Below are positions 3,915 through 56,383 of a DNA stretch of 64,000 nt, piece by piece. Both the position numbers and the translations under genes were made by a program. Origin of the DNA: Sphingobium yanoikuyae (GTDB lineage: Bacteria; Pseudomonadota; Alphaproteobacteria; Sphingomonadales; Sphingomonadaceae). Each line of letters opens with the position of its first letter. The stretch's first letter is position 1. The stretch covers positions 5,091,001 through 5,155,000 of the forward strand of contig NZ_CP053021.1 in NCBI RefSeq assembly GCF_013001025.1. Direction: 5' to 3'. The notes under the pieces are model-generated. The model searched no databases. It was not told the origin of the DNA and saw only the letters and a program-made list of their open reading frames with translations.

Positions 3915-5732
3915 ATGTCCCTGCGTAATATCGCGATCATCGCGCACGTCGACCATGGCAAGACCACGCTCGTCGACCAGCTTTTCCGCCAGTCCGGCAC
4001 CTTCCGCGACAACCAGCGCGTCGAAGAGCGCGCCATGGACTCGAACGACCTGGAAAAGGAACGCGGCATCACCATTCTGGCGAAGCCCACCTCGGTCGAA
4101 TGGAACGGCACCCGCATCAACATCGTCGATACGCCCGGCCACGCCGACTTCGGCGGCGAAGTGGAGCGCATCCTCTCGATGGTCGACGGCGTGATCCTGC
4201 TGGTCGATTCGTCGGAAGGCGCGATGCCGCAGACCAAGTTCGTGACCGGCAAGGCGCTGGCGCTCGGCCTCAAGCCGATCGTCGTCGTCAACAAGGTCGA
4301 CCGACCCGACGAGCGCATCCAGGAAGTGCTGGACGAAGTGTTCGACCTGTTCGTGACGCTCGACGCCACCGACGAACAGCTCGACTTCCCCGTCCTCTAC
4401 GCATCGGGCCGCAACGGCTATGCCAGCGAGGATTCGCAGCGTCGTGAAGGCACGCTGGAGCCGCTGTTCCAGAAGATCGTCGACCATGTCCCGCCGCCGT
4501 CGCTGGACCAGGATGCGCCGTTCAGCTTCCTCGTGACGCTGCTCGACCGCGACAACTTCCTGGGTCGTATCCTGACCGGCCGCGTCCAGTCGGGCACGGT
4601 CAAGGTCAACCAGCCGATCCACGCGCTGGATGCCGAAGGAAACGTGATCGAAACCGGCCGCGCGTCGAAGATCATGTCGTTCCAGGGCCTGGACCGCGTG
4701 CCGGTCGAGGAAGCCAAGGCAGGCGACATCATCTCGCTCGCCGGCCTGACCGTCGCGACTGTGGCCAACACCATTTCCGACCCGCAGGTCAGCACCCCGA
4801 TCAAGGCGCAGCCGATCGATCCGCCAACCCTGTCGATGCGCTTTGCCGTGAACGACTCGCCGATGGCCGGCCGTGAAGGCAGCAAGGTGACGAGCCGCAT
4901 GATCCGCGATCGTCTGGCCCGCGAAGCCGAATCCAACGTTGCCATCAAGGTGACGGAATCGGACGACAAGGACAGCTTCGAAGTCGCCGGCCGTGGCGAA
5001 CTGCAGCTGGGCGTCCTCATCGAAACCATGCGCCGCGAAGGCTTTGAACTGGGCATCTCGCGTCCCCGCGTGCTGTTCGGCGAAGACGAGAATGGCGGCA
5101 AGACCGAGCCTTACGAAACCGTCGTTATCGACGTGGACGATGAATTCTCGGGCACGGTCGTCGACAAGATGAACATCCGCAAGGCCGAGATGACCGACAT
5201 GCGTCCCTCGGGCGGCGGCAAGACCCGCATCACCTTCTCGGCGCCCTCGCGCGGCCTGATCGGCTATCATGGCGAATTCCTGTCCGACACGCGCGGCACC
5301 GGCATCATGAACCGCCTGTTCGAGAAGTACGGCCCCCACAAGGGCAAGATCGAAGGCCGCAAGAATGGCGTCCTGATCTCGAACGGCGCCGGCGAAGCCA
5401 ATGCCTATGCGCTGGGTCCGCTGGAAGATCGCGGCATCCTGTTCGTCGGCGTGGGCGAAGCCCTCTATGAAGGCATGATCATCGGCGAAAACGCCAAGCC
5501 GGAAGACCTCGAAGTCAACCCGATGAAGTCGAAGGCGCTGACCAACTTCCGCGCCAGCGGCAAGGACGACGCCGTCCGCCTGACCCCGCCGAAGAAGATG
5601 ACGCTGGAACAGGCGATCGCTTACATCGACGACGATGAAATGGTCGAAGTCACGCCCAAGACCATCCGTCTGCGCAAGCGCTACCTCGACCCGAACGAGC
5701 GCAAGCGCATGAGCCGTTCGAAGGCTGCCTGA
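3915..5732 (+). CDS. typA: Translational GTPase TypA/BipA
   Basis: Ribosome-associated GTPase of the EF-G-like family, involved in 50S assembly and stress adaptation. All G motifs are present in the first 140 residues: AHVDHGKTTL (P-loop), RGITI, DTPGHADF and NKVDR. They are followed by the beta-barrel domain II, EF-G-like domains (GRGELQLGVLIETMRREG, RGLIGYHGEFL) and the BipA-specific C-terminal domain ending in RKRYLDPNERKR. Length is 605 residues, normal for the family. The start at 3915 is preferred to an in-frame ATG 46 codons upstream because homologues begin MSLRNIAIIAHVDHGK and AAAGGCA precedes it. A strong terminator follows about 55 bp after the stop. Confidence 0.97.
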   Translation: MSLRNIAIIAHVDHGKTTLVDQLFRQSGTFRDNQRVEERAMDSNDLEKERGITILAKPTSVEWNGTRINIVDTPGHADFGGEVERILSMVDGVILLVDSSEGAMPQTKFVTGKALALGLKPIVVVNKVDRPDERIQEVLDEVFDLFVTLDATDEQLDFPVLYASGRNGYASEDSQRREGTLEPLFQKIVDHVPPPSLDQDAPFSFLVTLLDRDNFLGRILTGRVQSGTVKVNQPIHALDAEGNVIETGRASKIMSFQGLDRVPVEEAKAGDIISLAGLTVATVANTISDPQVSTPIKAQPIDPPTLSMRFAVNDSPMAGREGSKVTSRMIRDRLAREAESNVAIKVTESDDKDSFEVAGRGELQLGVLIETMRREGFELGISRPRVLFGEDENGGKTEPYETVVIDVDDEFSGTVVDKMNIRKAEMTDMRPSGGGKTRITFSAPSRGLIGYHGEFLSDTRGTGIMNRLFEKYGPHKGKIEGRKNGVLISNGAGEANAYALGPLEDRGILFVGVGEALYEGMIIGENAKPEDLEVNPMKSKALTNFRASGKDDAVRLTPPKKMTLEQAIAYIDDDEMVEVTPKTIRLRKRYLDPNERKRMSRSKAA

Positions 5733-5735
5733 TTT

Positions 5736-5819
5736 ATCAGGGTGGCCCTATTAAGGCCGCCTGATTTCCGGCTAGACAAGATATGAAAGGGCCGGTGTCG
5801 CGAGGCGCCGGCCCTTTTC
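5736..5819 (+). terminator. Tandem hairpins and Rho-independent terminator after typA
   Basis: A first imperfect stem (5736-5747 with 5755-5765, one bulge) is followed by a second, 10-bp perfect stem (5786-5795 with 5808-5817, AAAGGGCCGG/CCGGCCCTTT) that runs into TTTT. The second has the classical form of an intrinsic terminator on the plus strand. Confidence 0.85.
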
Positions 5820-5838
5820 CTTTATCCAGGAGGCTGCA

Positions 5839-6009
5839 ATGGCCGATCTCTATCTCAAGGCGTTGGAATCCGAGCGGCGCAAATTATGGGCCGAATGCCG
5901 CCTCAAGGGCCTGCCCAAGGGCACGCCGGAACGCGAGCGGATCGTCGAGATCGACGCGCTGCTCAAGGCGCACAAGGCCAAGAAGGACGGCAAGTCCGCC
6001 AACCCGTGA
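5839..6009 (+). CDS. Small conserved-type hypothetical protein (56 aa)
   Basis: A 56-codon reading frame with a textbook ribosome site: CCAGGAGG lies 5-7 bases before the ATG. The product is highly charged and soluble, begins MADLYLKALESERRKLW and ends KAKKDGKSANP, with a predicted pair of helices (ESERRKLWAECRL and ERERIVEIDALLKAHKAKK). No signal peptide, membrane segment or known domain is recognised. It stands alone between the typA terminator and a membrane-protein gene. I do not recognise the family; the strong ribosome site and low-complexity-free sequence make it a probable real gene. Confidence 0.7.
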   Translation: MADLYLKALESERRKLWAECRLKGLPKGTPERERIVEIDALLKAHKAKKDGKSANP

Positions 6010-6116
6010 CGGCCGCCATTTTCCGGTCGGCTCAGCATAAATCCCGATAGGCGGGAAGGGCATGCTTCCTATCGTCGCGGTTCTCATGGGCCGAGGCGAA
6101 GCGGAAGGGCGTGCAA

Positions 6117-7292
6117 GTGACCAACGAAGCGGACGCCGAAGGGCACGACCTGTTCGAATGGGGGCCGCCGCGCGGGCTGCCTGGCCTTGTCCGTCTGTCG
6201 GTGCCGGCCCTGCCCACGGTGCGCGCCCGCGCCCTGCTTGCGCTGGCGATCGGCTGGTTGGCGCTCCTGCTGCTCATCCTCGTCCTGCCGGGCCATGACC
6301 GGGCTGGCGACCTGCGCCATTTCCTGCGCGACGTCGGGGCGCATGCCCGCTTCGCCTTTGCCGTGCCGCTTCTGCTGGTCGCCCATGTCGAAACCGCGCG
6401 GCGGCTGGGCGCGGTGGTGCGCCATTTCGCCATTTCCGGGCTGATCCCGCCCGATGCCGGGGACGGATTGAAGGCTGAACTGGCCAGAGCGCGCGCGGCG
6501 GTGCGTGCGCCGGTCGCCGAACTGCTGGTGCTGCTCGCCGCCTATGCGATCATCCTGTGGTTGTTCGCGACCGGCATTTCGAACCATGGCCTGCCGGCCT
6601 GGACCATCGCCGGGCCGGGGCGGCTATCGGCGGCCGGCTGGTGGCATATGCTGGTCAGCCTGCCGCTGTTGCTCACACTGCTCATGGGCTGGCTCTGGCG
6701 CATCCTCGTGTGGACGCGGCTGCTGCACAAGGTCGCGGCCATGGACCTGCGGCTGGTCGTCGCCCATCCCGACAATGCCGGCGGCCTGGGCTTTCTGGCC
6801 CAGTCGGTCCGGGCCTTCGGCACCTTTGCGCTGGGGATCGGCTGCATCACCGCGGGCCGTTTCGCCAACGTCCATCTCCAGGGCGCTGCGACGCCGATGA
6901 CCGGCGGCTTCCTGATCGGTGGCACGGTGGCGCTGGTGCTGCTGCTGTGCGTTGCGCCGCTCGGCGTGTTCCGCCCGGTCATGGCGCGGGCCTGGCGGCG
7001 CAACGCGATGCATTATGGCGCGCTGGCGGTGGCGCTGGGCCGGTCGTTCGAGGATCGCTGGTTCGATGGCAGCGCGAAGGAACAGCCCGATCTTCTCTCC
7101 GCGCCGGATTTTTCGGCGGCGGCCGACCTCTATGGCGTGGTCTCCAACGTCTATGCCATGCGCTTCCTGCCGGTCGACCTGCGCAGCCTGCTGATCCTGA
7201 TCGCGGCGACGCTGGCGCCCTTTCTGGTGGCGATGTTCCTGTCGATGCCGACTGCGATGGTGCTGCAGGAACTGAAGGGAATGATGCTTTAG
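6117..7292 (+). CDS. Multi-pass membrane protein of unknown function
   Basis: Integral membrane protein of about 391 residues with some seven hydrophobic helices: ALLALAIGWLALLLLILVL, FAFAVPLLLVAHV, LLVLLAAYAIILWLF, LVSLPLLLTLLMGWLWRIL, TFALGIGCITAG, FLIGGTVALVLLLCVA and LLILIAATLAPFLVAMFL. Loops between helices contain Arg-rich, probably cytosolic, patches. No family could be named. The GTG at 6117 is chosen because GGAAGGG lies 7 bases before it; a GTG two codons earlier is possible but sits too close to that site. The stop overlaps the stop of the convergent sensor kinase by four bases (TTAG). Its position beside a two-component system is suggestive only. Confidence 0.75.
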   Translation: MTNEADAEGHDLFEWGPPRGLPGLVRLSVPALPTVRARALLALAIGWLALLLLILVLPGHDRAGDLRHFLRDVGAHARFAFAVPLLLVAHVETARRLGAVVRHFAISGLIPPDAGDGLKAELARARAAVRAPVAELLVLLAAYAIILWLFATGISNHGLPAWTIAGPGRLSAAGWWHMLVSLPLLLTLLMGWLWRILVWTRLLHKVAAMDLRLVVAHPDNAGGLGFLAQSVRAFGTFALGIGCITAGRFANVHLQGAATPMTGGFLIGGTVALVLLLCVAPLGVFRPVMARAWRRNAMHYGALAVALGRSFEDRWFDGSAKEQPDLLSAPDFSAAADLYGVVSNVYAMRFLPVDLRSLLILIAATLAPFLVAMFLSMPTAMVLQELKGMML

Positions 7293-8653
7293 CGGTCGAG
7301 CGGCAGGATCACCGTGGCGCGCAATCCGCCCTCGGCCCGGTTGGCAAAGCCGATGCTACCCTCATGTCCCTCGGCAATGGTGCGGGCGATCGACAGGCCC
7401 AGGCCCACGCCACCGGTCTCGCGATTGCGCGACGCTTCGCCGCGATAGAAAGGCTCGCACAGCCGGTCGAGAATCTCGGGCGGAACGCCGGGGCCGGAAT
7501 CGACCACATCGACGATCGCCCGGCTACCCTCGACGCGCAGGCTGACCCGCGCCGATCCGCCATAGCGCACCGCATTCTCGACCATGTTGCCGATGCAGCG
7601 GCGCAGCGCGAGCGCGTCGCCCTCTATCACGGCGCGCTGGCTGGCGGTGACGACGACATCATGGCCCATGTCGGCCAGGTCGTCGGCCAGCGTCTCGACT
7701 ATCGCCGACAGGTCGATGCGCGCGCGCTGGCGCCCTTCGGTCCCTTCGCGCATGAAGTCGAGCAGGTCGGTGACCATCGCCCGCATTTCCTGCACGTCGG
7801 CCTGCGCCTTGGCGCGCGGGCCGTCGGGCAATTGTTCCAGGCGGAAGGACAGGCGCGTCATCGGCGTGCGCAGGTCATGGGCGATGGCCACCAGCATGGC
7901 GGTGCGTTCCGACACATAATCGGCGATCCGCGCGCGCATGTGATTATAGGCGATGCCCATGGCGCGCACTTCGGGCGGGCCGCCGATCGGCAGCGGCTCG
8001 GCGCGTTCCGGCCGCTCGCGCGCGGCCCCTTCGGCCAGCAGGCGGATCGGCTGGGTAATGCGCCGCGCCACCCAATAGGCCGGCAGCAGCAGCAGGATGA
8101 AGATGCCCGCCATCAGCGACAGGGTGATCGCATACCAGCGCCAGTTCGGCCCCTGCCGACCCAGCAGCACCGACCAGTTCCTGCCATCCTCGCGCACGGC
8201 CAGGGCAAAGCTGCCGCGCAGCATCATCCGGCCGGGGTCGAACTCCATCCCCATGTCGGGTCGGGGCCCGATCTCCGGTCCGGGGCGCGGCATGCCGATC
8301 GGCGGCCGTTCCTGGATCAGCGCCACCGCATTGGCCGGCACGCCCAGCAGGCCGGCAATGCGCTCGGCCCCCGCACGGTTGCTTTCCTGCCCCGCGTCGG
8401 GCGCGGGGGCGCGATCCGATTGATAGCGGCTGATCTGCCAGCTGCCGGGCGGCTGGGTGCCGCCGCGCAGCAGGCCGGTCGCCTCCACCAGCATCATCGG
8501 CCGGGCATGGGGCGGGGGGCCGCGAAAGGCGACCAGCATCATCGCGCCCAGCGCCAGCAACAGGGTCGCGGCGACCAGAAAGACGATCCGGGTCAGGATC
8601 GAGGGGTTGTAGCGCCCCCGCTCGCCGGCGCCCGGCAGCATCGCCGGGTTCAC
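7289..8653 (-). CDS. Sensor histidine kinase (EnvZ-like)
   Basis: Membrane sensor kinase of 454 residues. A first transmembrane helix near residues 20-42 and a second near 173-195 flank a periplasmic domain of about 130 residues rich in Pro, Arg and Met. A HAMP linker, a HisKA domain with the phosphorylated His in AIAHDLRTPMTRL, and an HATPase domain (NMVENAVRYG, DSGPGVP, GGVGLGLSIAR) follow. The Pro after HDLRT and the RLSFRLEQL helix are typical of the EnvZ/RstB-like group. Start overlaps the stop of the upstream response regulator by four bases, so the pair is translationally coupled. The periplasmic domain shows GPRPDMGMEF and similar Met-rich motifs, but the signal is unknown. Confidence 0.93.
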   Translation of the reverse strand: MNPAMLPGAGERGRYNPSILTRIVFLVAATLLLALGAMMLVAFRGPPPHARPMMLVEATGLLRGGTQPPGSWQISRYQSDRAPAPDAGQESNRAGAERIAGLLGVPANAVALIQERPPIGMPRPGPEIGPRPDMGMEFDPGRMMLRGSFALAVREDGRNWSVLLGRQGPNWRWYAITLSLMAGIFILLLLPAYWVARRITQPIRLLAEGAARERPERAEPLPIGGPPEVRAMGIAYNHMRARIADYVSERTAMLVAIAHDLRTPMTRLSFRLEQLPDGPRAKAQADVQEMRAMVTDLLDFMREGTEGRQRARIDLSAIVETLADDLADMGHDVVVTASQRAVIEGDALALRRCIGNMVENAVRYGGSARVSLRVEGSRAIVDVVDSGPGVPPEILDRLCEPFYRGEASRNRETGGVGLGLSIARTIAEGHEGSIGFANRAEGGLRATVILPLDR

Positions 8654-9417
8654 GCCGGGCGGACCTCGGCGGTGAACATATAGCCTTCGTTGCGGATCGT
8701 GCGGACCAGTTCGTCGCCCATCTCGCCACGCTCCAGCTTGCGGCGCAGGCGGCTGACCTGGACATCGATCGCCCGGTCATAGCTTTCCGCGTCGCTGCCG
8801 GCCGAATAGTCGAGCAACTGGTCGCGGCTCAGCACCCGGCGCGGATGCTCGATGAAGGCGCGCAGCAGGCGGAACTCGCCATCGGTCAAGGTGACGACGA
8901 CATTGTCAGGGTCGGTCAGCAGGCGCACGCCCATGTCGACCTGCCAGCCGGCAAAGCGCAGCCGCTGCCCGGCGGGCACCTGCGGTTCCGATGTCTGGCG
9001 GCGATTGCGGCGCAGCACGGTGCGGACGCGGGCGAGCAGTTCGCGCGGATTGCACGGCTTGGGCAGATAATCCTCCGCCCCCATTTCCAGCCCGACGATC
9101 CGGTCGATATCGCCGCCGATCGCCGACAGCATGATGATCGGCAGGTCGCCGTTCGCGGCCAGCCGGCGCAGAATCGACAGCCCGTCCTCGCCCGGCATCA
9201 TCACGTCCAGCACCGCGATGTCGAATGTCTGCACGGCGAGCGCCTGATCCATCGCCACGCCGTCCGCGACCGCGGTCACGGCAAAGCCATGCTGCTCCAG
9301 AAAATCCGACAACAGGATGCGGATGTCCGCATCATCGTCGACCACCAATATGCGCGATCCGTCCATATTGGCGGTCAGCATATCGATTGAAGGCGATCCC
9401 TGCAAAGTCATCCGCAT
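8650..9417 (-). CDS. OmpR-family response regulator
   Basis: DNA-binding response regulator of 255 residues, partner of the kinase encoded immediately downstream. The receiver domain runs from about residue 20 (ILVVDDDADIRILL) with the acceptor Asp in VLDVMMPGEDG, the Ser/Thr switch in IIMLSAIGG and the conserved Lys in YLPKPCNPREL. The C-terminal winged helix contains TDGEFRLLRAFIEHPRRVLS and the recognition region AIDVQVSRLRRKLE. The first Met follows an AGGA site; Met at residue 4 is an alternative. The gene lies only 8 bases downstream of the dioxygenase-like gene, so all three genes probably share one transcript. Confidence 0.94.
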   Translation of the reverse strand: MRMTLQGSPSIDMLTANMDGSRILVVDDDADIRILLSDFLEQHGFAVTAVADGVAMDQALAVQTFDIAVLDVMMPGEDGLSILRRLAANGDLPIIMLSAIGGDIDRIVGLEMGAEDYLPKPCNPRELLARVRTVLRRNRRQTSEPQVPAGQRLRFAGWQVDMGVRLLTDPDNVVVTLTDGEFRLLRAFIEHPRRVLSRDQLLDYSAGSDAESYDRAIDVQVSRLRRKLERGEMGDELVRTIRNEGYMFTAEVRPA

Positions 9418-9425
9418 AATTCCTG

Positions 9426-10334
9426 TCAGATGGCGATGCCGACCGTCACCGTGCCGGTGAAGCCATTGGTCGTATCGCCGGTCATGGTGGGCGTCATCGC
9501 CGCGACCTGGGCCGACGTGTTGTCGCCGAACACATTGTCGCTGCTGGTGGTGATCTTGGCGAAATTGGTCTTGCTGCTGGAATAGCCGCTGGTCGCATAG
9601 ACCGTGTTGCAGGCATCCGTCGGCATCGCGAACTGCGACGTCAGCACGCGGTTGGCATAGCTGGTCGCCTTGGCGAGGCTGGGATAGACCTCGAAATGGA
9701 TATGCGGGAAGCGCCCGTCATAGCAGCCGGGGAAGATGCTGGTGAAGGTCACCTGGCCATTGGCATCGGTCACCCCCACGCCGCGCAGGTAATTTTCGCC
9801 TGGCACGGTGTAGAGCGAATAGAGGCCGTCGCGGGTGCAATGCCAGATATAGACGGCATAGCCCTCCAGCGGCGCGCAGCTGCCATTGACGTTCACCACC
9901 GTGATGGTCAGCTGCATATAGATGCCCTCGGCGGTGCCGCTCGACGATCCGAAGCTCGACCGTATGTCGGTGCGCACGATGCCGGTATCGTCCAGCACAT
10001 TGACGACGCTGCCATTGCTGCTGTTCGATCCGTCCGCCGGATAGGGGCCGTTGGTTTCCTCCGGATCGGCGATGCAACTGCTCGACGTCGGGGTCGGCGT
10101 GGGTGTTGGCGTCGGGGTAGGGGTGGGCGTCGGCGTGGCGGTCGATGTGTCAGTGTCGCTGTCACTGCCGCCGCCACCGCAGGCGGTGATCAGCGCGGCG
10201 CTGCCGGCCGAAAAGAGCAGGCGCAGCGTGCGGCGGCGGCCGATCGCCTCGCCAGCCAGCTTGCGCATCTGCGCCAGGTCATCGGCCAGGCCATGGCCAT
10301 GGCCATGGTCGTCATGCGCGCCATCCTGCATCAT
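9426..10334 (-). CDS. Intradiol ring-cleavage dioxygenase-like lipoprotein
   Basis: Exported protein of about 302 residues related to intradiol (protocatechuate/catechol) dioxygenases. The N-terminus carries a His-rich tract, an RRR pair and hydrophobic stretch like a Tat signal, and the lipobox LITAC (Cys52). A low-complexity Thr-Pro linker comes next. The catalytic-type domain has GYAVYIWHCTRDGLYSLY and PGCYDGRFPHIHF, in which the Tyr and the HxH match the iron-ligand pattern of the family. It therefore probably sits on the membrane facing the periplasm; whether it cleaves aromatic rings is unproven. It heads an operon with an OmpR-type regulator and its kinase, an unusual pairing for this enzyme type. 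Confidence 0.85.
   Translation of the reverse strand: MMQDGAHDDHGHGHGLADDLAQMRKLAGEAIGRRRTLRLLFSAGSAALITACGGGGSDSDTDTSTATPTPTPTPTPTPTPTPTSSSCIADPEETNGPYPADGSNSSNGSVVNVLDDTGIVRTDIRSSFGSSSGTAEGIYMQLTITVVNVNGSCAPLEGYAVYIWHCTRDGLYSLYTVPGENYLRGVGVTDANGQVTFTSIFPGCYDGRFPHIHFEVYPSLAKATSYANRVLTSQFAMPTDACNTVYATSGYSSSKTNFAKITTSSDNVFGDNTSAQVAAMTPTMTGDTTNGFTGTVTVGIAI
10087..10147. repeat. Six-base microsatellite encoding the Thr-Pro linker
   Basis: About nine degenerate hexamer units of the type GGGGTC/GGCGTG within the dioxygenase-like gene; on the coding strand they read as alternating Thr-Pro codons. Repeats of this kind can change length by slippage in whole codon pairs, so linker length may vary between strains. 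Confidence 0.7.
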
Positions 10335-49487: not shown

Positions 49488-49569
49488 GTTAGAAGATGCG
49501 CAGGACGATCGGCCGTGCCACGGCCTCGGGGAATAGCATTTCGGGCGATTTGCGACTATGGGCGGCGCC

Positions 49570-51192
49570 ATGATCCGTCTTTCCGGTTTGAAACTGCCCC
49601 TCGACCATTCGGCCGAGGCGATGCCCGTCGCCATCTGCGAACGCCTGGGGCTGGAGCCGCAGCAACTGCTTGGCCACAGCGTCGTGCGGCGCGGCAATGA
49701 TGCGCGCCGCCGCAGCGCGATCCAGCTGGTCTATACGCTCGACATCGACGTGGCCGACGAGGCCGCGGTGCTGGAGCGCTTTGCCAAGGACCATGATGTC
49801 CGGCCGACGCCCGACACCAGCTACAAGTTCGTCGCCCATGTGCCCGACGGCTGGCAGGGCAAGCGCCCGGTGGTGATCGGGGCGGGGCCGTGCGGCCTGT
49901 TCGCCGGCCTGATCCTGGCGCAGATGGGGTTCAAGCCGATCATCCTGGATCGCGGCAAGGTGGTGCGCGAGCGGACCAAGGACACCTGGGGCCTGTGGCG
50001 CCGGGCCGAACTCAACCCCGATTCCAATGTCCAGTTCGGCGAGGGGGGCGCCGGTACCTTCTCCGACGGCAAGCTCTATTGCCGGGTGAAGGATCCCCGC
50101 TTCCTGGGCCGCAAGGTGCTGGAGGAGTTCGTCGCCGCCGGCGCACCCGACGATATCTTGTGGGAAGCGCACCCCCATATCGGCACTTTCCGCCTGGTCT
50201 CGATGGTCGAAGCGATGCGCAAGCAGATCGAGTCGCTCGGCGGCGAATATCGCTGGCAGCACCGCGTCGACGATCTGGTGCTGGAACGGCAGGGCGACGG
50301 CACGCAGAAATTGCGCGGGCTGGTGCTGCATGACGGCAGCGTGATCGAGGCGGATCATGTGGTGATGGCGGTGGGCCACAGCGCCCGCCCGACCTTCGAG
50401 ATGCTGCACGGCAAGGGCGTGCATATCGAACCCAAGCCCTTCTCGATCGGCGTGCGGATCGAGCATCCGCAAAGCTGGGTCGACAAGGCGCGCTATGGCA
50501 ATTGCGCCGGCCATCCCGATTTGGGTGCGGCGGCCTATAGCCTCGCCCATCATTGCGCCAATGGGCGGACCGTCTACAGCTTCTGCATGTGTCCGGGTGG
50601 CCGGGTGGTCGCCGCCACTTCGGAGGAAGGGCGCGTCGTCACCAATGGCATGAGCCAGTATAGCCGCGCCGAATTCAACGCCAATTCGGGGCTGGTCGTC
50701 GGCATCGATCCGGCGCGCGATTTCCCGGAGGGGCCATTGGCCGGGATCGAACTGCAGCGCCATTGGGAAAGCCTGGCCTATGTCGCGGGCGGTTCTTCCT
50801 ATTGGGCGCCGGGGCAGACGGTGGGCGACTTCCTCGCGCATCGGCCTTCGACCCAGCTGGGATCGGTCGTGCCCTCCTACAAGCCGGGGGTCACGCCGAC
50901 CGACCTGTCGCTCTGCCTGCCCGACTATGTGATCGAGGCGTTTCATGAGGCGCTGCCGGCCTTTGGTCGCCAGATCGCCCGCTATGACGATCCCGACGCG
51001 GTGATGACCGGCGTGGAAACCCGCACCTCCTCGCCGATCCGCATCACGCGCGGCAAGGATTTTCAGAGCCTCAACGTTGCCGGCCTCTACCCGGCGGGCG
51101 AGGGCGCGGGCTATGCCGGGGGTATCCTCTCGGCGGCGATCGACGGCATCAAGGTGGCCGAGGCGGTGGCGGTTCAGATGGTCCAGTCCTGA
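49570..51192 (+). CDS. FAD-dependent oxidoreductase (NAD(P)/FAD family)
   Basis: Flavoprotein of about 540 residues. An N-terminal domain (about 1-95, AEAMPVAICERLGL, SAIQLVYTLDIDV) precedes the Rossmann dinucleotide-binding segment VVIGAGPCGLFAGLILAQMG near residue 100. The region VQFGEGGAGTFSDGKLY and the C-terminal GLYPAGEGAGYAGGILSAAI complete the FAD site. This family is widespread and of uncertain substrate. Start at 49570 (MIRLSGLKLPL) matches the expected family N-terminus; 49558 is an alternative and neither has a clear ribosome site. Confidence 0.87.
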   Translation: MIRLSGLKLPLDHSAEAMPVAICERLGLEPQQLLGHSVVRRGNDARRRSAIQLVYTLDIDVADEAAVLERFAKDHDVRPTPDTSYKFVAHVPDGWQGKRPVVIGAGPCGLFAGLILAQMGFKPIILDRGKVVRERTKDTWGLWRRAELNPDSNVQFGEGGAGTFSDGKLYCRVKDPRFLGRKVLEEFVAAGAPDDILWEAHPHIGTFRLVSMVEAMRKQIESLGGEYRWQHRVDDLVLERQGDGTQKLRGLVLHDGSVIEADHVVMAVGHSARPTFEMLHGKGVHIEPKPFSIGVRIEHPQSWVDKARYGNCAGHPDLGAAAYSLAHHCANGRTVYSFCMCPGGRVVAATSEEGRVVTNGMSQYSRAEFNANSGLVVGIDPARDFPEGPLAGIELQRHWESLAYVAGGSSYWAPGQTVGDFLAHRPSTQLGSVVPSYKPGVTPTDLSLCLPDYVIEAFHEALPAFGRQIARYDDPDAVMTGVETRTSSPIRITRGKDFQSLNVAGLYPAGEGAGYAGGILSAAIDGIKVAEAVAVQMVQS

Positions 51193-51310: not shown

Positions 51311-52342
51311 ATGCTGAACCCGATCGACCGTTGCATGCGCATCTCCCCGGCCGACAAGGCCCGGCTGCGCCTCCTGTTCCTGGCCAAACATGCCTGCAAG
51401 GGCGGCGGCGCCGACAGCGTGGATGGCAATCATGCCGTCTATCATCATGAGATGCGATCGACGCTGGAGGCGATCGGCCTCCATGTCGCGGTCGCCGACA
51501 GCTATGATGCGCTGTTCGACAAGCCCGATGTCGACTTCGTCGTCACCCTGCTCAATCGCGGCGGCTTCCAGAATAGCGAGATGCTGGCGCCGCTCCTGCT
51601 GTCCTGGCGCGGCGTGCCCTTCCTGGGCGCTAGTCCGATCCTGCGCGGTGTGTCGGACGACAAATATCTCTCCAAGCTGATCGCCCGCGCCCATGGCGTG
51701 CCGACCATGCCAGCGCGCATCCTGCGCCGCGGCGCGATGCCGGCCGGCCCGGAATTTCAGGCGGAACGGCTGGTGGTGAAGCCCAACGCGTCCTCGGCCT
51801 CCTGGGGCCTCGCAATGGTCGACAGCTGGGCGGAGGCCCATGCCCATGCCGATCATCTCCATGGCCTGGGCCATGACGTGCTGGTCGAGGCCTGGGCGCC
51901 CTTGCTCGACGTGGCCGTGCCGGTCGTCGGCGGCAGCGGTGGCCAGCCCTGGATTCTCCCGCCGATGATGTATGTGCCGGCCGATCCGCATCGCGAACGC
52001 AGCTATGAGGAGAAGCGCGGCTTGATCGATGCGGGCGATGATCCGCTGATCCTGGTCGAGGACCATGACCTGCGGACGCGGCTGGAGGATATGACCCGCC
52101 GCCTGCTGCCCGAACTCTGGCCGTTCGACTATGGCCGGTTCGAGTATCGCTACGATCCGGCGTCGGGCGAGCTGCTGTTCATGGAAGTGAACCTGTCCTG
52201 CAATCTCTGGTCGAAGAAGACGATCTCGCGCTCGGCCGCGTCGATCGGCGTCGATCATCAGAGCCTGGTCGAAACCATCGTCGCGCACAGCCTGGCCCGC
52301 CATGGCCTGCTGACCGAAATGCCGGTGCTGGAGGCTGCCTGA
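51311..52342 (+). CDS. ATP-grasp ligase, D-Ala-D-Ala-ligase-like
   Basis: A 343-residue ATP-grasp protein of the D-alanine ligase/carboxylate-amine ligase type. An N-terminal pre-ATP domain (LFLAKHACKGGG, HHEMRSTLEAIGL, VVTLLNRGG) is followed by an ATP-binding region (VVKPNASSASWGLAM with the phosphate-loop Ser, VLVEAWAP) and the metal-binding FMEVNLSCN near residue 290. It would couple a carboxylate to an amine with ATP hydrolysis, forming a peptide-like bond. First gene of a four-gene operon whose genes overlap or nearly touch. Specific substrates are unknown. Confidence 0.85.
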   Translation: MLNPIDRCMRISPADKARLRLLFLAKHACKGGGADSVDGNHAVYHHEMRSTLEAIGLHVAVADSYDALFDKPDVDFVVTLLNRGGFQNSEMLAPLLLSWRGVPFLGASPILRGVSDDKYLSKLIARAHGVPTMPARILRRGAMPAGPEFQAERLVVKPNASSASWGLAMVDSWAEAHAHADHLHGLGHDVLVEAWAPLLDVAVPVVGGSGGQPWILPPMMYVPADPHRERSYEEKRGLIDAGDDPLILVEDHDLRTRLEDMTRRLLPELWPFDYGRFEYRYDPASGELLFMEVNLSCNLWSKKTISRSAASIGVDHQSLVETIVAHSLARHGLLTEMPVLEAA

Positions 52343-53148
52343 TGCCGGGGACAGCGACGGCACTGGTATTGGCCGGCAAGCGCGATGGAGCGACCGATCC
52401 GCTCGCGCTGGCAGCAGATGTCACGCATAAATGCCTTGTCCCGGTCGCTGGCCAGCCGATGCTGGTTCATGTGATCGAGGCGCTGGCGGCCAGCCCGCGC
52501 ATTGGCGAAATCCGGGTCGCGATTGAGGATGTGGCGGTGCTCGATGCCCTGCCGCAACTGCGCGGCCTGCGGAACACCGGGCGGCTGGTCGCGATTCCGG
52601 CCCGGCCCAATCTGGTCGATTCCGTGCTGGCCGCAGCCGACGGCGCGCGCTTCCCGCTGCTCATCACCACCGCCGACAATGTGCTGCTGACGCCCGATGC
52701 ACTGGCCGAGATGCTGGACGGTTGCGCGGCGCAAGGGGCTAATGCCGGCGTCGCTTTCACCCGCCGCGCGTCGGTGCTGGCGGCCCATCCGCAGGGGCAG
52801 CGCAAATTCTATCGCTTCGCCGACGACGAATTTTCCAACTGCAACACCTATTGGCTGAAGGATGCAAAGGCGCTGGCAGCGGCCGAGACCTTCCGCTCGG
52901 GCGGGCAGTTCGTGAAGCATCCGATGCGGATCATCGGCGCCTTCGGCCTGATCAACCTGATCCGTTTCCGCTTCGGCATCGGCACGCTGGGCCAGGCCTT
53001 TGCGCGCTTTTCCCGCCGCTTCCGCATGGTGATCGCGCCGGTGATCCTGAGCGACGGTGCGGTCGCGATCGACGTCGACAATGCGCGCAGCCATGGCGTG
53101 GCAAGCGAATTGCTGGAGCGGCGGCTGGCGCGGGTCGAGGCGGCCTGA
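52342..53148 (+). CDS. Nucleotidyltransferase (MobA/GlmU-like)
   Basis: A 268-residue NTP-transferase-fold protein. The P-loop-like opening TALVLAGKRDGATDP, then KCLVPVAGQPMLVHVIEAL and the metal Asp in LLITTADNVLL are typical of sugar-nucleotide or cofactor nucleotidyltransferases. A C-terminal region (FGLINLIRFRFGIGTLG, basic RRFRMV) is not assigned. Starts on the last base of the preceding stop (TGATG). May activate a sugar or alcohol phosphate for the glycosyltransferase two genes downstream. Confidence 0.83.
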   Translation: MPGTATALVLAGKRDGATDPLALAADVTHKCLVPVAGQPMLVHVIEALAASPRIGEIRVAIEDVAVLDALPQLRGLRNTGRLVAIPARPNLVDSVLAAADGARFPLLITTADNVLLTPDALAEMLDGCAAQGANAGVAFTRRASVLAAHPQGQRKFYRFADDEFSNCNTYWLKDAKALAAAETFRSGGQFVKHPMRIIGAFGLINLIRFRFGIGTLGQAFARFSRRFRMVIAPVILSDGAVAIDVDNARSHGVASELLERRLARVEAA

Positions 53149-53151
53149 CCC

Positions 53152-54243
53152 TTGTTCACGTTGCGTGCGTTGCCCCCGGCCGACGGCAATGTCCTGCTGG
53201 CGGCCTATCATGACGGATTGCGTCGCCACTGGCCGCTGGGCCGGCGAACGGTTGCGCGGCTGATCGCGGCGAGCGGGCGCAGCGGCTGGGCGGCATCGGA
53301 ACGACGCTTGCTGTGCGAGACGGTGCGGGCGCAGGGGCTCAGCATGCGCGATCGCAAGGGGCTGCATCGGCTGCTCAATCCCGGTGCCTTTCCGGCCGAG
53401 GCCAATCCGCTCAAGAACAAGCAGCTTTTCGCCCGCCATGCCGCTGCCGCCGGCCTGCCGGTGCCCGACAGTTTCGCGCTGGAGACGAGTGATATCGCCA
53501 GCTGGCTGCACGGCCAGAGCGTCATCATCGCCAAGCCCAGCTATTGCTCCAAGGGGCAGGGTGTGGTGCGCTTCGAAAAGAAGGGCGGACGCTGGGAAGG
53601 GGCCGAAGGGCCGATCGCCGACGACGCGCTGCGCGCGCGCCTGCTGGCGCTGTGGGCGGCCGGCGGGGTGATCCAGCGCTGCCTGGCTACCCATGAAGCG
53701 CTGGCGGACATGTCGCCGGGCGCGCTGCCGACCTTGCGCGTGGTCACCTGCCTGGACGAGGTTGGCACGCCCGAGGCCTGCGCGCTGGCGCTGCGCCTGT
53801 CGGCCGGCGGCGGGCGCCCTGTGGATAATTTCAACGCCGGCAATCTGGTGCTGTCGGTCGATGCCGACGGGCATTGCGGGCCGGTGTGGCAGGCGGGACC
53901 GGACGGCGCGCCGATCCGCTGTGACCGGCATCCGCTGACCGGCGCACTTATCAGCGGCCGGCCGGTGCCTGATCTGGATGCCGCCGTGGCGCTGGCGCTG
54001 CGGGCGCATCTCGCTTTCCGATCGGGCTTTACCGTGATCGGCTGGGATGTTGGCCTGACGCCGGACGGCCCGGTGCTGGTCGAAGGCAACTGGAACCCCG
54101 GCACCGACATCATGCAACTGGTGAGCGGCCGGGGGCTGGCCGACAGCCGGCTGGGCGCGCTTTACTGCCATCATCTGCGCCATCTGCCGCCGCAGCGCTG
54201 GCAGGCGGCCGGCGCGATCGAGCGCGACCCGCGCCGGGCGTGA
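53152..54243 (+). CDS. Sugar-transfer-associated ATP-grasp protein
   Basis: A 363-residue ATP-grasp protein matching the sugar-transfer-associated group, which is found beside glycosyltransferases in exopolysaccharide loci. Visible motifs are NPLKNKQLFARHAAAAGLPV, IIAKPSYCSKGQGVVRF (ATP loop), LPTLRVVTCLDE, FNAGNLVLSVDADG and the metal-binding LVEGNWNPGTD. The start is a TTG at 53152, three bases after the preceding stop; no in-frame ATG exists until far inside the conserved region. Overlaps the next gene by four bases (GTGA). Confidence 0.83.
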   Translation: MFTLRALPPADGNVLLAAYHDGLRRHWPLGRRTVARLIAASGRSGWAASERRLLCETVRAQGLSMRDRKGLHRLLNPGAFPAEANPLKNKQLFARHAAAAGLPVPDSFALETSDIASWLHGQSVIIAKPSYCSKGQGVVRFEKKGGRWEGAEGPIADDALRARLLALWAAGGVIQRCLATHEALADMSPGALPTLRVVTCLDEVGTPEACALALRLSAGGGRPVDNFNAGNLVLSVDADGHCGPVWQAGPDGAPIRCDRHPLTGALISGRPVPDLDAAVALALRAHLAFRSGFTVIGWDVGLTPDGPVLVEGNWNPGTDIMQLVSGRGLADSRLGALYCHHLRHLPPQRWQAAGAIERDPRRA

Positions 54244-55337
54244 TCATCCTCTATGTCCATGCGCTGGCCGCGACCGGCGTGGTGCGCAATGTCCGTATCC
54301 TGGCCGCCGAACTGGCGGCGCGCGGTCTGGCGGTCGAACTGGTGACGGCGCTGCCGGGTGGCGAGGGCGTGACCGGCGTGCCGCATCATGCGCTGCTGGC
54401 CGGACCGTACCCGTCGCGCCCGCGCGAAAAGCTGCAGGCGATCGCGGCGCTGCGGCGGCATTTGCGATCGCGGGGACAAGCGACGCTGATTTCGGCGGGC
54501 AATCATGGCCATGGCACGGCCTGGGCGGCGAGCCAGGGACTGCGCGACGTGCGGCGCATCTATCGCATCAGCAACGATCTCATGCGCAACGCGGCGGGCG
54601 CGCCGTCGGGCGGGCTTGGGCGCATCGGCCGCACCGCGATGGCGCGGCTGCTGGCGCGCGACGCCGATCATCTGGTGCTGGTGTCGCCGACCTTGGCGGA
54701 TACGCCTGCTTTTGCCGGCGCGGCGCGGGCGGGCAAGGTGGCGGTGATCCCCAATGGCATCGATGCCGATGCCGCCCGCTTCCTGGCGGACGGGCCGGTG
54801 CCGCATCGCTGGATGGGGCGCACGCCGCCGGTGATCCTGGCGATCGGCCGGCTGGCGCCGCAGAAGAATTTCGCCACCTTGCTCGCGGCCTTCGCGATCC
54901 TGCGGCGGCAAAGGCCGGCGCGCCTCATCATCCTGGGCGAAAGTCGCGACCGCGCCTGTGACAGCCTGCGGGCGCAGGCGGCGGCGTTGGGCGTGGCCGC
55001 GCATATCGACCTGCCCGGCACGGTCGACAATGTCTTCCCCTGGCTGGCCCATGCCGATGCCTTCGTCCTGCCGAGCTGGTGGGAGGGATCGCCCAATGTG
55101 TTGCTGGAGGCGATGGCCGTGGATGTGCCGATCGTCGCGTCGCGCAGCGCCGGCAACGCCGTCGACCTGCTCGATGATGGACGGTGCGGACTGCTGGTCG
55201 ATCCGGCCGATGCGGCGGCGATGGCCGATGCGCTGGCACGGCAACTGGACCTCGCCACCGCGATCCGCCCCGGCGACCGGATCGACCATTTCGGCTTGGA
55301 TGCGCTGTCGGATGCCTGGGTGCGGCTGCTGCGCTAG
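54240..55337 (+). CDS. Glycosyltransferase family 4 protein
   Basis: Retaining glycosyltransferase of the GT4 group, 365 residues. The N-terminal Rossmann domain begins IILYVHALAATGVVRNVRIL; the C-terminal nucleotide-sugar domain has VIPNGIDADAARF, AIGRLAPQKNFATLL, LIILGE and the EX7E motif in PSWWEGSPNVLLEAMA. The GTG start overlaps the previous stop. The last gene of the ATP-grasp operon; its stop overlaps that of the convergent AraC gene (CTAG). Donor and acceptor unknown. Confidence 0.92.
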   Translation: MIILYVHALAATGVVRNVRILAAELAARGLAVELVTALPGGEGVTGVPHHALLAGPYPSRPREKLQAIAALRRHLRSRGQATLISAGNHGHGTAWAASQGLRDVRRIYRISNDLMRNAAGAPSGGLGRIGRTAMARLLARDADHLVLVSPTLADTPAFAGAARAGKVAVIPNGIDADAARFLADGPVPHRWMGRTPPVILAIGRLAPQKNFATLLAAFAILRRQRPARLIILGESRDRACDSLRAQAAALGVAAHIDLPGTVDNVFPWLAHADAFVLPSWWEGSPNVLLEAMAVDVPIVASRSAGNAVDLLDDGRCGLLVDPADAAAMADALARQLDLATAIRPGDRIDHFGLDALSDAWVRLLR

Positions 55338-56383
55338 GCGTTACGGAATTGCCTTGGCGTCTGCCCGGTCCAGCGCTTGAAGGCGCGGCCGAAGCTGGTC
55401 TGTTCGGCATAGCCCAGCCGCTCCGCCACCTCGTCGATCGGCATCGGCGTTTGGCGCAGATAGATGCGGGCGAGTTGCTCGCGCTGTTCCTCGACCAGAT
55501 CGCTGAAATGCAGGCCATGGGCGGCGAGCCGGCTTTGCAGCGTCCGCACCGACAGGCCCATCCGGTCGGCGCAGCGCTCGATCGCGCAGGTGCCTGCCGG
55601 CAGCGCGCCGCGCACATAGGATCGCGCCCGTTCCGCCATGTCGGCATGGTTGAACAGGCGCAGCCGACCCAGATAGCCGCCGACCAGCCGATAGGTCAGC
55701 CGATTGGCCGTTGCGATCGGCAGGTCGAGCAAGGCGGCGGAAAAGCCGATCGCGCTGCCCGGCGCGCGCGGGCGGACGGCCGTGCCCAGCAACGCCTCTA
55801 TCTCGATCAGTTCGCGTGGGCTGGGATCAGCGGAAAATTGCACCCAGGCGGCGCGGAAGCGCTGGCCGCTGACGGTCCGCAACAGCAGCAGGATCAGCAT
55901 CATCGCCTGATAATTGGCCTGGTCGTTGAAGCCGAGATCGGCGCCGACCACCCAGCGCAGTTCGGCCATGCCGCCTTCTTCCACCAGTTCCAGCTGCGCC
56001 TCGGGCGAATGGGCGACCGGCAGGTAGCGGATCAGGCTGGCGATCGCGGCGCGCAGGTCCGGCGCGGCGCGGCAGACGGCGGTGACGCCGCCAAAAATGT
56101 CGGCGTCCTGGGTCGCGGCAAGGTGGAGGCCGAATAGCGGATCGTCGAACAACAGGCTGCAATATTCGAACATCGCCGCCACCTGCTGGCAGGCGATATG
56201 GCTGTCGGGATCGGCCAGCACCATCGGGTCGAGGCCATGCTGGGCGAGAATGCGGCGCGGCGCCCCACCGCGTGCGCGGACATAATCGGAAAAGCCGCGC
56301 AGATTGGCCGCGCGCATCTGGCCGGCGGCCGGCACCGCCTCCAGCGGGCCTTCCAGCCCGAAGAAAAAATCCTGCTCCTCCAT
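55334..56383 (-). CDS. AraC-family regulator with OruR/arabinose-binding-type N-terminus
   Basis: A 349-residue regulator. Residues 1-235 form the long ligand domain found in OruR/ArgR-like AraC proteins (RGFSDYVRARGGAPRRIL, DIFGGVTAVCRAAPDLRAAI), and the C-terminal 100 residues carry two helix-turn-helix units (CAIERCADRMGLSVRTLQSRL and IDEVAERLGYAEQTSFGRAF). It is divergent from the crotonase gene across 125 bases and so is likely to control the catabolic operon at 56.5-62.7 kb. Confidence 0.92.
   Translation of the reverse strand: MEEQDFFFGLEGPLEAVPAAGQMRAANLRGFSDYVRARGGAPRRILAQHGLDPMVLADPDSHIACQQVAAMFEYCSLLFDDPLFGLHLAATQDADIFGGVTAVCRAAPDLRAAIASLIRYLPVAHSPEAQLELVEEGGMAELRWVVGADLGFNDQANYQAMMLILLLLRTVSGQRFRAAWVQFSADPSPRELIEIEALLGTAVRPRAPGSAIGFSAALLDLPIATANRLTYRLVGGYLGRLRLFNHADMAERARSYVRGALPAGTCAIERCADRMGLSVRTLQSRLAAHGLHFSDLVEEQREQLARIYLRQTPMPIDEVAERLGYAEQTSFGRAFKRWTGQTPRQFRNA

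Follow-up and report, generated by a model that had tools for sequence, protein, structure and literature searches.

A co-inherited gene set for two ATP-grasp ligases, a nucleotidyltransferase and a glycosyltransferase in Sphingobium

The analyzed DNA (hereafter the window) is a 64,000-nucleotide stretch of the Sphingobium yanoikuyae genome (contig NZ_CP053021.1, positions 5,091,001–5,155,000). It contains four consecutive genes, termed A, N, S and G, which encode two ATP-grasp ligases (A and S), a nucleotidyltransferase (N) and a glycosyltransferase (G) (Table 1). The coordinates of the open reading frames (ORFs) bear out the four-gene operon proposed for positions 51311–55337 in a preliminary description of this DNA: the A stop codon and N share base 52342 (1-base overlap), N and S are separated by 3 bases, and S and G overlap by 4 bases. 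The TTG and GTG starts mentioned there, which belong to S and G, are backed by relatives, since methionine stands at the aligned place in the Croceicoccus locus L066 (ATG; gene S) and in locus L055 (gene G). The ratio of nonsynonymous to synonymous substitution rates (dN/dS, NG86), calculated against Sphingobium and Croceicoccus loci with five to seven relatives per gene, was 0.18–0.48 across all 26 gene pairs (A, 0.22–0.27; N, 0.18–0.27; S, 0.28–0.48; G, 0.30–0.39), indicating that all four reading frames are under protein-level constraint.

Table 1. Genes of the A-N-S-G operon and flanking or overlapping features (positions in the window; aa, amino acids).
Feature	Product	Position	Strand	Pfam match or remark
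A	D-alanine (D-Ala) ligase-like (Ddl-fold) ATP-grasp ligase, 343 aa, ATG start	51311–52342	+	Dala_Dala_lig_C
N	MobA-like nucleotidyltransferase, TTHA0179/2dpw relative, 268 aa, ATG start	52342–53148	+	NTP_transf_3
S	ATPgrasp_ST ligase, 363 aa, TTG start	53152–54243	+	PF14397
G	family 4 glycosyltransferase (GT4), 365 aa, GTG start	54240–55337	+	PF13692/PF00534/PF13439
FAD gene	FAD-dependent protein	49558–51192	+	upstream of A, 118 bases off
Regulator gene	AraC-type regulator	55334–56383	-	downstream, converging, 4-base overlap with G
Antisense ORF	641 aa	52258–54183	-	covers part of the operon

In agreement with the earlier likening of one ATP-grasp protein to D-Ala ligases, A exceeds the Pfam cut-off for Dala_Dala_lig_C (29.5 bits; cut-off 24) and has the ATP-grasp fold, including the Ddl N-terminal domain. 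Residues K118, K157, E193, E292 and N294 are present in all 19 aligned sequences, and position 278 is E in 16 and D in 3 of them; by analogy with Ddl, we take these to be the lysines and the acidic, Glu and Asn ligands that bind ATP and Mg. The D-Ala-binding residues of Ddl, which we take to be the Tyr following the Lys of a Y..KY motif and the Ser of a GMTSHS-type loop, have no such counterparts. HMMER alignment to 3r23 places the Tyr opposite R236 of A (R in 18/19 sequences), and alignment to 8evy leaves R236 opposite a gap, with the Tyr falling on G237; neither candidate place holds Tyr in A. The Ser of 8evy lies opposite position 303, which is K in 14, R in 4 and G in 1 of the 19 sequences, and its D-Ala loop EVNTAPGMTDHS corresponds to EVNLSCNLWSKK in A. 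Identity to 8evy is about 22%, A has its own near-invariant N-terminal motif (DG.H..Y), and it falls under the cut-offs of both NCBIfam Ddl models (53.7 bits of 243 and 53.3 of 245.65 needed). The loss of the D-Ala residues and these scores rule out a true D-Ala ligase. Judged from the alignments, A is an enzyme with the Ddl fold that has lost the D-Ala pocket, and its substrate pocket is remodelled; it exemplifies the recruitment of this fold to a task other than D-Ala ligation. The presence of K or R at position 303 in place of the Ser argues for an anionic partner compound other than D-alanine, and suggests that the acceptor probably carries a phosphate or carboxylate.

The product of N scored 38.7 bits against NTP_transf_3 (cut-off 27), and its residues R14, K30, D112, D244 and D246, whose catalytic roles are assigned by analogy, occur in all 21 aligned sequences. 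Its nearest solved relative is TTHA0179 of Thermus (PDB 2dpw; about 24% identity), followed by cytidine monophosphate-3-deoxy-manno-octulosonate (CMP-Kdo) synthetases and IspD in sequence profile comparison, and by GlmU and IspD in fold comparison. The PDB entry assigns no function or substrate to TTHA0179, and a search of the open-access literature on this protein gave nothing usable. The co-inherited gene set would offer the relatives of 2dpw a function that can be put to the test. A paralog of N (35% identity) is encoded elsewhere in the same genome (L098, G000:C1:3130000-3146000; positions 7095–7886), near a PF01943 flippase (5185–6531), a separate NTP_transferase (4288–5058) and an M23 peptidase (7927–9465). 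A further N-like subfamily (35–38%) lies near an ORF resembling family 2 glycosyltransferases (GT2) and an ORF with the motif YALPDHEV in L165, L167, L168, L172 and L179. In L167 the latter ORF is a weak Sulfotransfer_3 match, and MmgE/PrpD and UDP-sugar dehydrogenase genes are also present; perhaps these loci represent another glycan pathway using N.

The second ATP-grasp protein, S, was previously placed in the sugar-transfer-associated group, and its score against ATPgrasp_ST (PF14397; 120.1 bits, cut-off 31.4) confirms this. Residues K90, K128, D299, E311 and N313 are present in 11/11 aligned sequences. Both A and S thus keep their ATP- and metal-binding residues in the alignments; the absence of these residues from either protein, which the preliminary description had named as a refutation, was not observed. 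The N-terminal region of S is shorter than in the aligned relatives outside Sphingobium and Croceicoccus. S adjoins a glycosyltransferase gene; Pfam names no reaction for its family. The name ATPgrasp_ST probably comes from the work of Iyer et al. in 2009 on amidoligases; a search of the open-access literature on the name yielded nothing usable. Five S-like copies were found by BLAST within about 10 kb at another locus (L162, G007:C25:43000-62000), one of which was confirmed in Pfam.

Both the N- and C-terminal GT4 domains of G exceed their Pfam cut-offs (PF13692, Glyco_trans_1_4, 120.8 bits with a cut-off of 27; PF13439, 50.7 bits). Its best NCBIfam match is the XrtA/PEP-CTERM glycosyltransferase stp2 (TIGR03088), at 106 bits against a cut-off of 409, and membership of that system was ruled out. 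ORFs resembling asparagine synthases (named by eye) occur near sdhB/zapE in L148, L149, L151 and L153–L155; they were dismissed as a link to XrtA/PEP-CTERM, as the same ORF is found in L167 (G100), a genome without A. A match of G to the GT4-conflict model in Pfam (47.5 bits) prompted a search for anti-phage defence, which was rejected because none of the four operon proteins matched PADLOC at E≤0.01.

The distribution of the four genes was examined in 94 genomes of the genus, including that of the window; G was counted at E≤1e-50, and N matches weaker than E 1e-60 were taken as paralogs and excluded from the ortholog count (such matches, with about 30–38% identity, occur in most of the 84 N-matching genomes). 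Matches were found for A in 42, the N ortholog in 41, S in 37 and G in 38 of the 94 genomes. Genomes with A contain N in 41/42, S in 37/42 and G in 36/42 cases; for the 52 genomes without A the respective numbers are 0, 0 and 2. These counts are not independent, on account of shared ancestry, and relatedness would inflate any p value; the co-occurrence nevertheless indicates that the set is more than a chance assembly. The order A-N-S-G, contiguous (gaps of -60 to 150 bases) and on one strand, is found in 34 of the 42 genomes with A, including one (G848) in which S is in two pieces that were entered as one stretch. The same genes recur in a rearranged order (<G S> A> N>) in three diverged genomes: Sphingomonas prati (L096), G846 (L190) and G710 (L144), the last outside the order (same class) and with identities to the window genes of 40% (G), 40% (S), 51% (A) and 51% (N). 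The question left by the preliminary description, whether the four genes occur together elsewhere, is therefore answered in the affirmative: the four-gene set is real and conserved in Sphingobium.

Beyond the genus the set is variable. An Erythrobacteraceae locus (L072) has the order N-S-A, the Croceicoccus locus L066 the order A-N-S-flippase, and in G561 (L145), outside the order, A (63%) and S (52%) are accompanied by N no more than 5 kb from A. A class-wide search with an A profile gave matches in 115/289 genomes at 1e-12; apart from the genome of the window only G480 and G237 exceeded 200 bits, and the other matches listed (at most 85 bits) look like ordinary Ddl. In the phylum-wide search (14/398 genomes at 1e-28), G710 and G561, outside the order, gave near full scores. 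At the order level, a strong A match (at least 43% identity) was found in 49 of 196 genomes; these are 49 of 65 A-matching genomes, kept with a single A match and a single N match for each after removal of weak Ddl-like rows, fragments, the 28–29% rows of G086 and G060, and second copies. In 29 of the 49, A and N are no more than 3 kb apart; each of the other 20 carries an N-family gene at another site, which in G059 is only 38% identical and lies near another flippase. Distant A homologs (27–29%) were also observed beside a protein matching GATase_7 in L117 (G086) and L161 (G060), with further GATase_7 look-alike ORFs (two in L117, one in L161) and a Wzx-type flippase in L117, and a genome outside the class (G567) has an A-like ATP-grasp region (26%) within an open frame of 750 aa (L146:7496-9748).

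The genes accompanying A were counted within 5 kb at 56 named A loci (a larger total of 107 A instances contains some places repeatedly), with score thresholds set by the analyst, so that diverged copies could be missed. N was present at 34 loci, S at 31, G at 22, a flippase at 5 and a gene family termed f16 at 13, and 6 loci had none of these; S and f16 were found together at 0/56. The core is therefore A-N, or A alone, to which S/G and f16 look like alternative additions. That A-N alone, A-S alone and A-f16 all occur, and that G is present without the other three in G840 and G850, would be expected if A-N were one functional pair and S and G separate surface-glycan enzymes, merely co-transcribed with it. 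We consider such loose linkage very improbable: in the 94 genomes S is never found without A, and G only twice, and the set S-A-N-G recurs with another gene order in the three diverged genomes.

The f16 genes encode proteins of about 500 aa and lie beside A in loci without S (e.g., L184:8528-10018; also L067, L084, L085, L155, L176, L185 and L191), often divergently from A. Five of six members had no Pfam family at E≤1 and the sixth gave one chance match to TFIID; in NCBIfam one member had two weak matches (E 0.05, and E 0.12 to a PhnW-like model), and the PDB provided no credible match. Comparison of the f16 profile with seven ORFs of the window's genome at class V aminotransferase matches gave a probability of 89 and an E value of 2.6e-6 over 196 columns; this is one pairwise profile comparison, and one of the seven reference ORFs (L198) is probably the wrong ORF. 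In the alignment, VDACQ of f16 falls on the D..Q motif and GSKFMGGP on the K..GP motif, both of which presumably bind pyridoxal phosphate (PLP). Control profiles of A, N and S gave E values of 0.18–0.61 against the same ORFs, and against an earlier, partly wrong set of PLP ORFs the f16 profile reached E 0.018 with a probability of 2.5. This comparison points to f16 being a divergent, class V-like enzyme of PLP fold type I that Pfam misses. A neighbouring PLP enzyme that produces an amine would suit A as an amide ligase.

The preliminary description saw no transporter attached to the operon, which holds for the window and fails for some relatives, in which a flippase adjoins N or A-N. Such genes were found beside N by BLAST in L099–L104 and L171, and flippase-like ORFs were recognized by eye in L105, L107 and L108; those tested match PF01943 (multidrug/oligosaccharidyl-lipid/polysaccharide (MOP) superfamily, Wzx-type). 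These neighbours bear on the possibility that the genes direct a soluble small-molecule pathway (peptide- or phosphonate-like), in which N activates, A and S add amino acids and G glycosylates a secreted or intracellular product. ATP-grasp enzymes together with a MobA-like cytidylyltransferase do also occur in phosphonate-peptide clusters, and the patchy spread (42/94 genomes) fits an accessory metabolite. Against this, the Wzx-type flippases handle lipid-linked units, and no phosphoenolpyruvate (PEP) mutase, resistance or export family was found in Pfam among the four proteins. The PEP_mutase family does match the genome of the window, but it is found in 11 of 14 control genomes as well and is thus uninformative on a phosphonate route. 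We give this soluble-product pathway little credence.

The A-N-S-G set is an ATP-grasp ligase and glycosyltransferase cluster, probably for an amide-modified surface sugar compound. More specifically, the likeliest reading, although we see the case for and against it as evenly balanced, is a dedicated small pathway in which a nucleotide-activated unit containing an amide is built for a glycoconjugate of the cell envelope. N would link a nucleotide to a small phosphorylated compound, with cytidine triphosphate (CTP) slightly favoured over uridine triphosphate (UTP); A would use ATP to phosphorylate a carboxylate, which it would then couple to an amine or a comparable nucleophile; S, to judge from its co-inheritance, would make a second ATP-driven bond of this type on the same or next intermediate; and G, as its family suggests, would transfer a sugar onto the product or from it. 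From the company they keep, all four may act on one compound, the product being lipid- or polymer-linked, and in some relatives the MOP flippase beside N could carry the lipid-linked product over the inner membrane. As a guild, the combination of activation, ligation and transfer to a glycan or lipid put forward in the preliminary description is still the best reading; its particulars (a sugar as the substrate of N, both ATP-grasp enzymes on one compound, and the product) are conjectural. A broader proposal, which we think unlikely, is that A-N is central to an alphaproteobacterial pathway, as yet undescribed, for nucleotide-activated, amide-linked envelope-glycolipid donors, existing in two exchangeable forms (S with G, or the amine-supplying PLP-like f16) with a Wzx-type flippase as exporter. 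The envelope chemistry of sphingomonads, whose outer membrane contains glycosphingolipids, is poorly mapped, and the co-inherited set marks a compound that probably belongs to it.

Two characterized enzymes provide parallels that work alike, without being established as parts of homologous pathways. Cj1438C of Campylobacter jejuni uses ATP to couple the carboxylate of glucuronic acid (GlcA) with serinol-P or ethanolamine-P (PMC11800379). It is an ATP-grasp enzyme that joins a glycan carboxylate to an amine, as A and S may do, and it belongs to a glycan cluster with glycosyltransferases; unlike A and S, which are unfused and of other ATP-grasp families, Cj1438C is described there as a TupA-like ATP-grasp fused with a GT2. 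CpgD of Caulobacter is a CTP:phosphoglycerate cytidylyltransferase that produces cytidine diphosphate (CDP)-glycerate for a sphingolipid headgroup (PMC12275187, PMC13228409). It resembles N in its nucleotidyltransferase fold, possible CDP product and alphaproteobacterial envelope pathway; its authors assign it to COG1213, whereas the nearest solved relative of N is 2dpw, the two being compared by description only. Both precedents would suit a route that modifies a glycan or glycosphingolipid already in place, with A and S amidating one of its uronic acids or amino sugars, G attaching a decorating sugar and N serving as a supporting CDP-headgroup enzyme that works like CpgD. In A, the conserved K/R303 might bind a phosphate. 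Sphingomonads also make GlcA-containing glycosphingolipids. However, neither S nor A matches the TupA-like ATP-grasp family in Pfam at E≤1, which for S speaks against this route, and the flanks that were read showed no obvious sphingolipid gene, although no search was aimed at such genes; we find this alternative doubtful. Searches confined to one open-access library (subscription papers lay outside its scope) brought up no described pathway with this gene set and no combination of ATPgrasp_ST with A and N; an operon with an ATP-grasp gene in PMC12419801 is unrelated.

Several observations weigh against a dedicated envelope pathway of four genes. The occurrence of A in only 42/94 genomes indicates that the product is dispensable. 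Four genomes (G831, G860, G898 and G891, of which G891 is only 60% complete) contain A with no match for S or G; in G847, G is missing and A-N and S lie on different contigs, although the retention of both in that genome counts in favour of the pathway; and G841 retains only the first 108 residues of A, with a transposase-like ORF (by eye) nearby (L189). G occurs without A-N-S in G840 (L187) and G850 (L188). In G850 it lies directly beside an ORF like the FAD gene flanking the window operon, and the three genes A, N and S seem to have been lost, or never acquired, together. S is missing within 5 kb of A at 25/56 loci and G at 34/56 which, together with the two solitary G genes, indicates that the four genes are not an obligate unit. 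The window operon contains no epimerase, dehydratase, polymerase or export gene, and no flippase adjoins N in L114–L116, L166–L170, L172, L173, L179 and L181; several loci without a flippase beside N hold more distant N relatives. The Pfam label "sugar-transfer associated" is itself a neighbourhood-based prediction.

A promoter and terminator scan gave no signal exceeding that of shuffled sequences. The antisense ORF is unlikely to be a gene, since it overlaps conserved genes, and is probably a GC-rich artefact. Gene A is 97% identical to that of a Sphingobium scionense locus.

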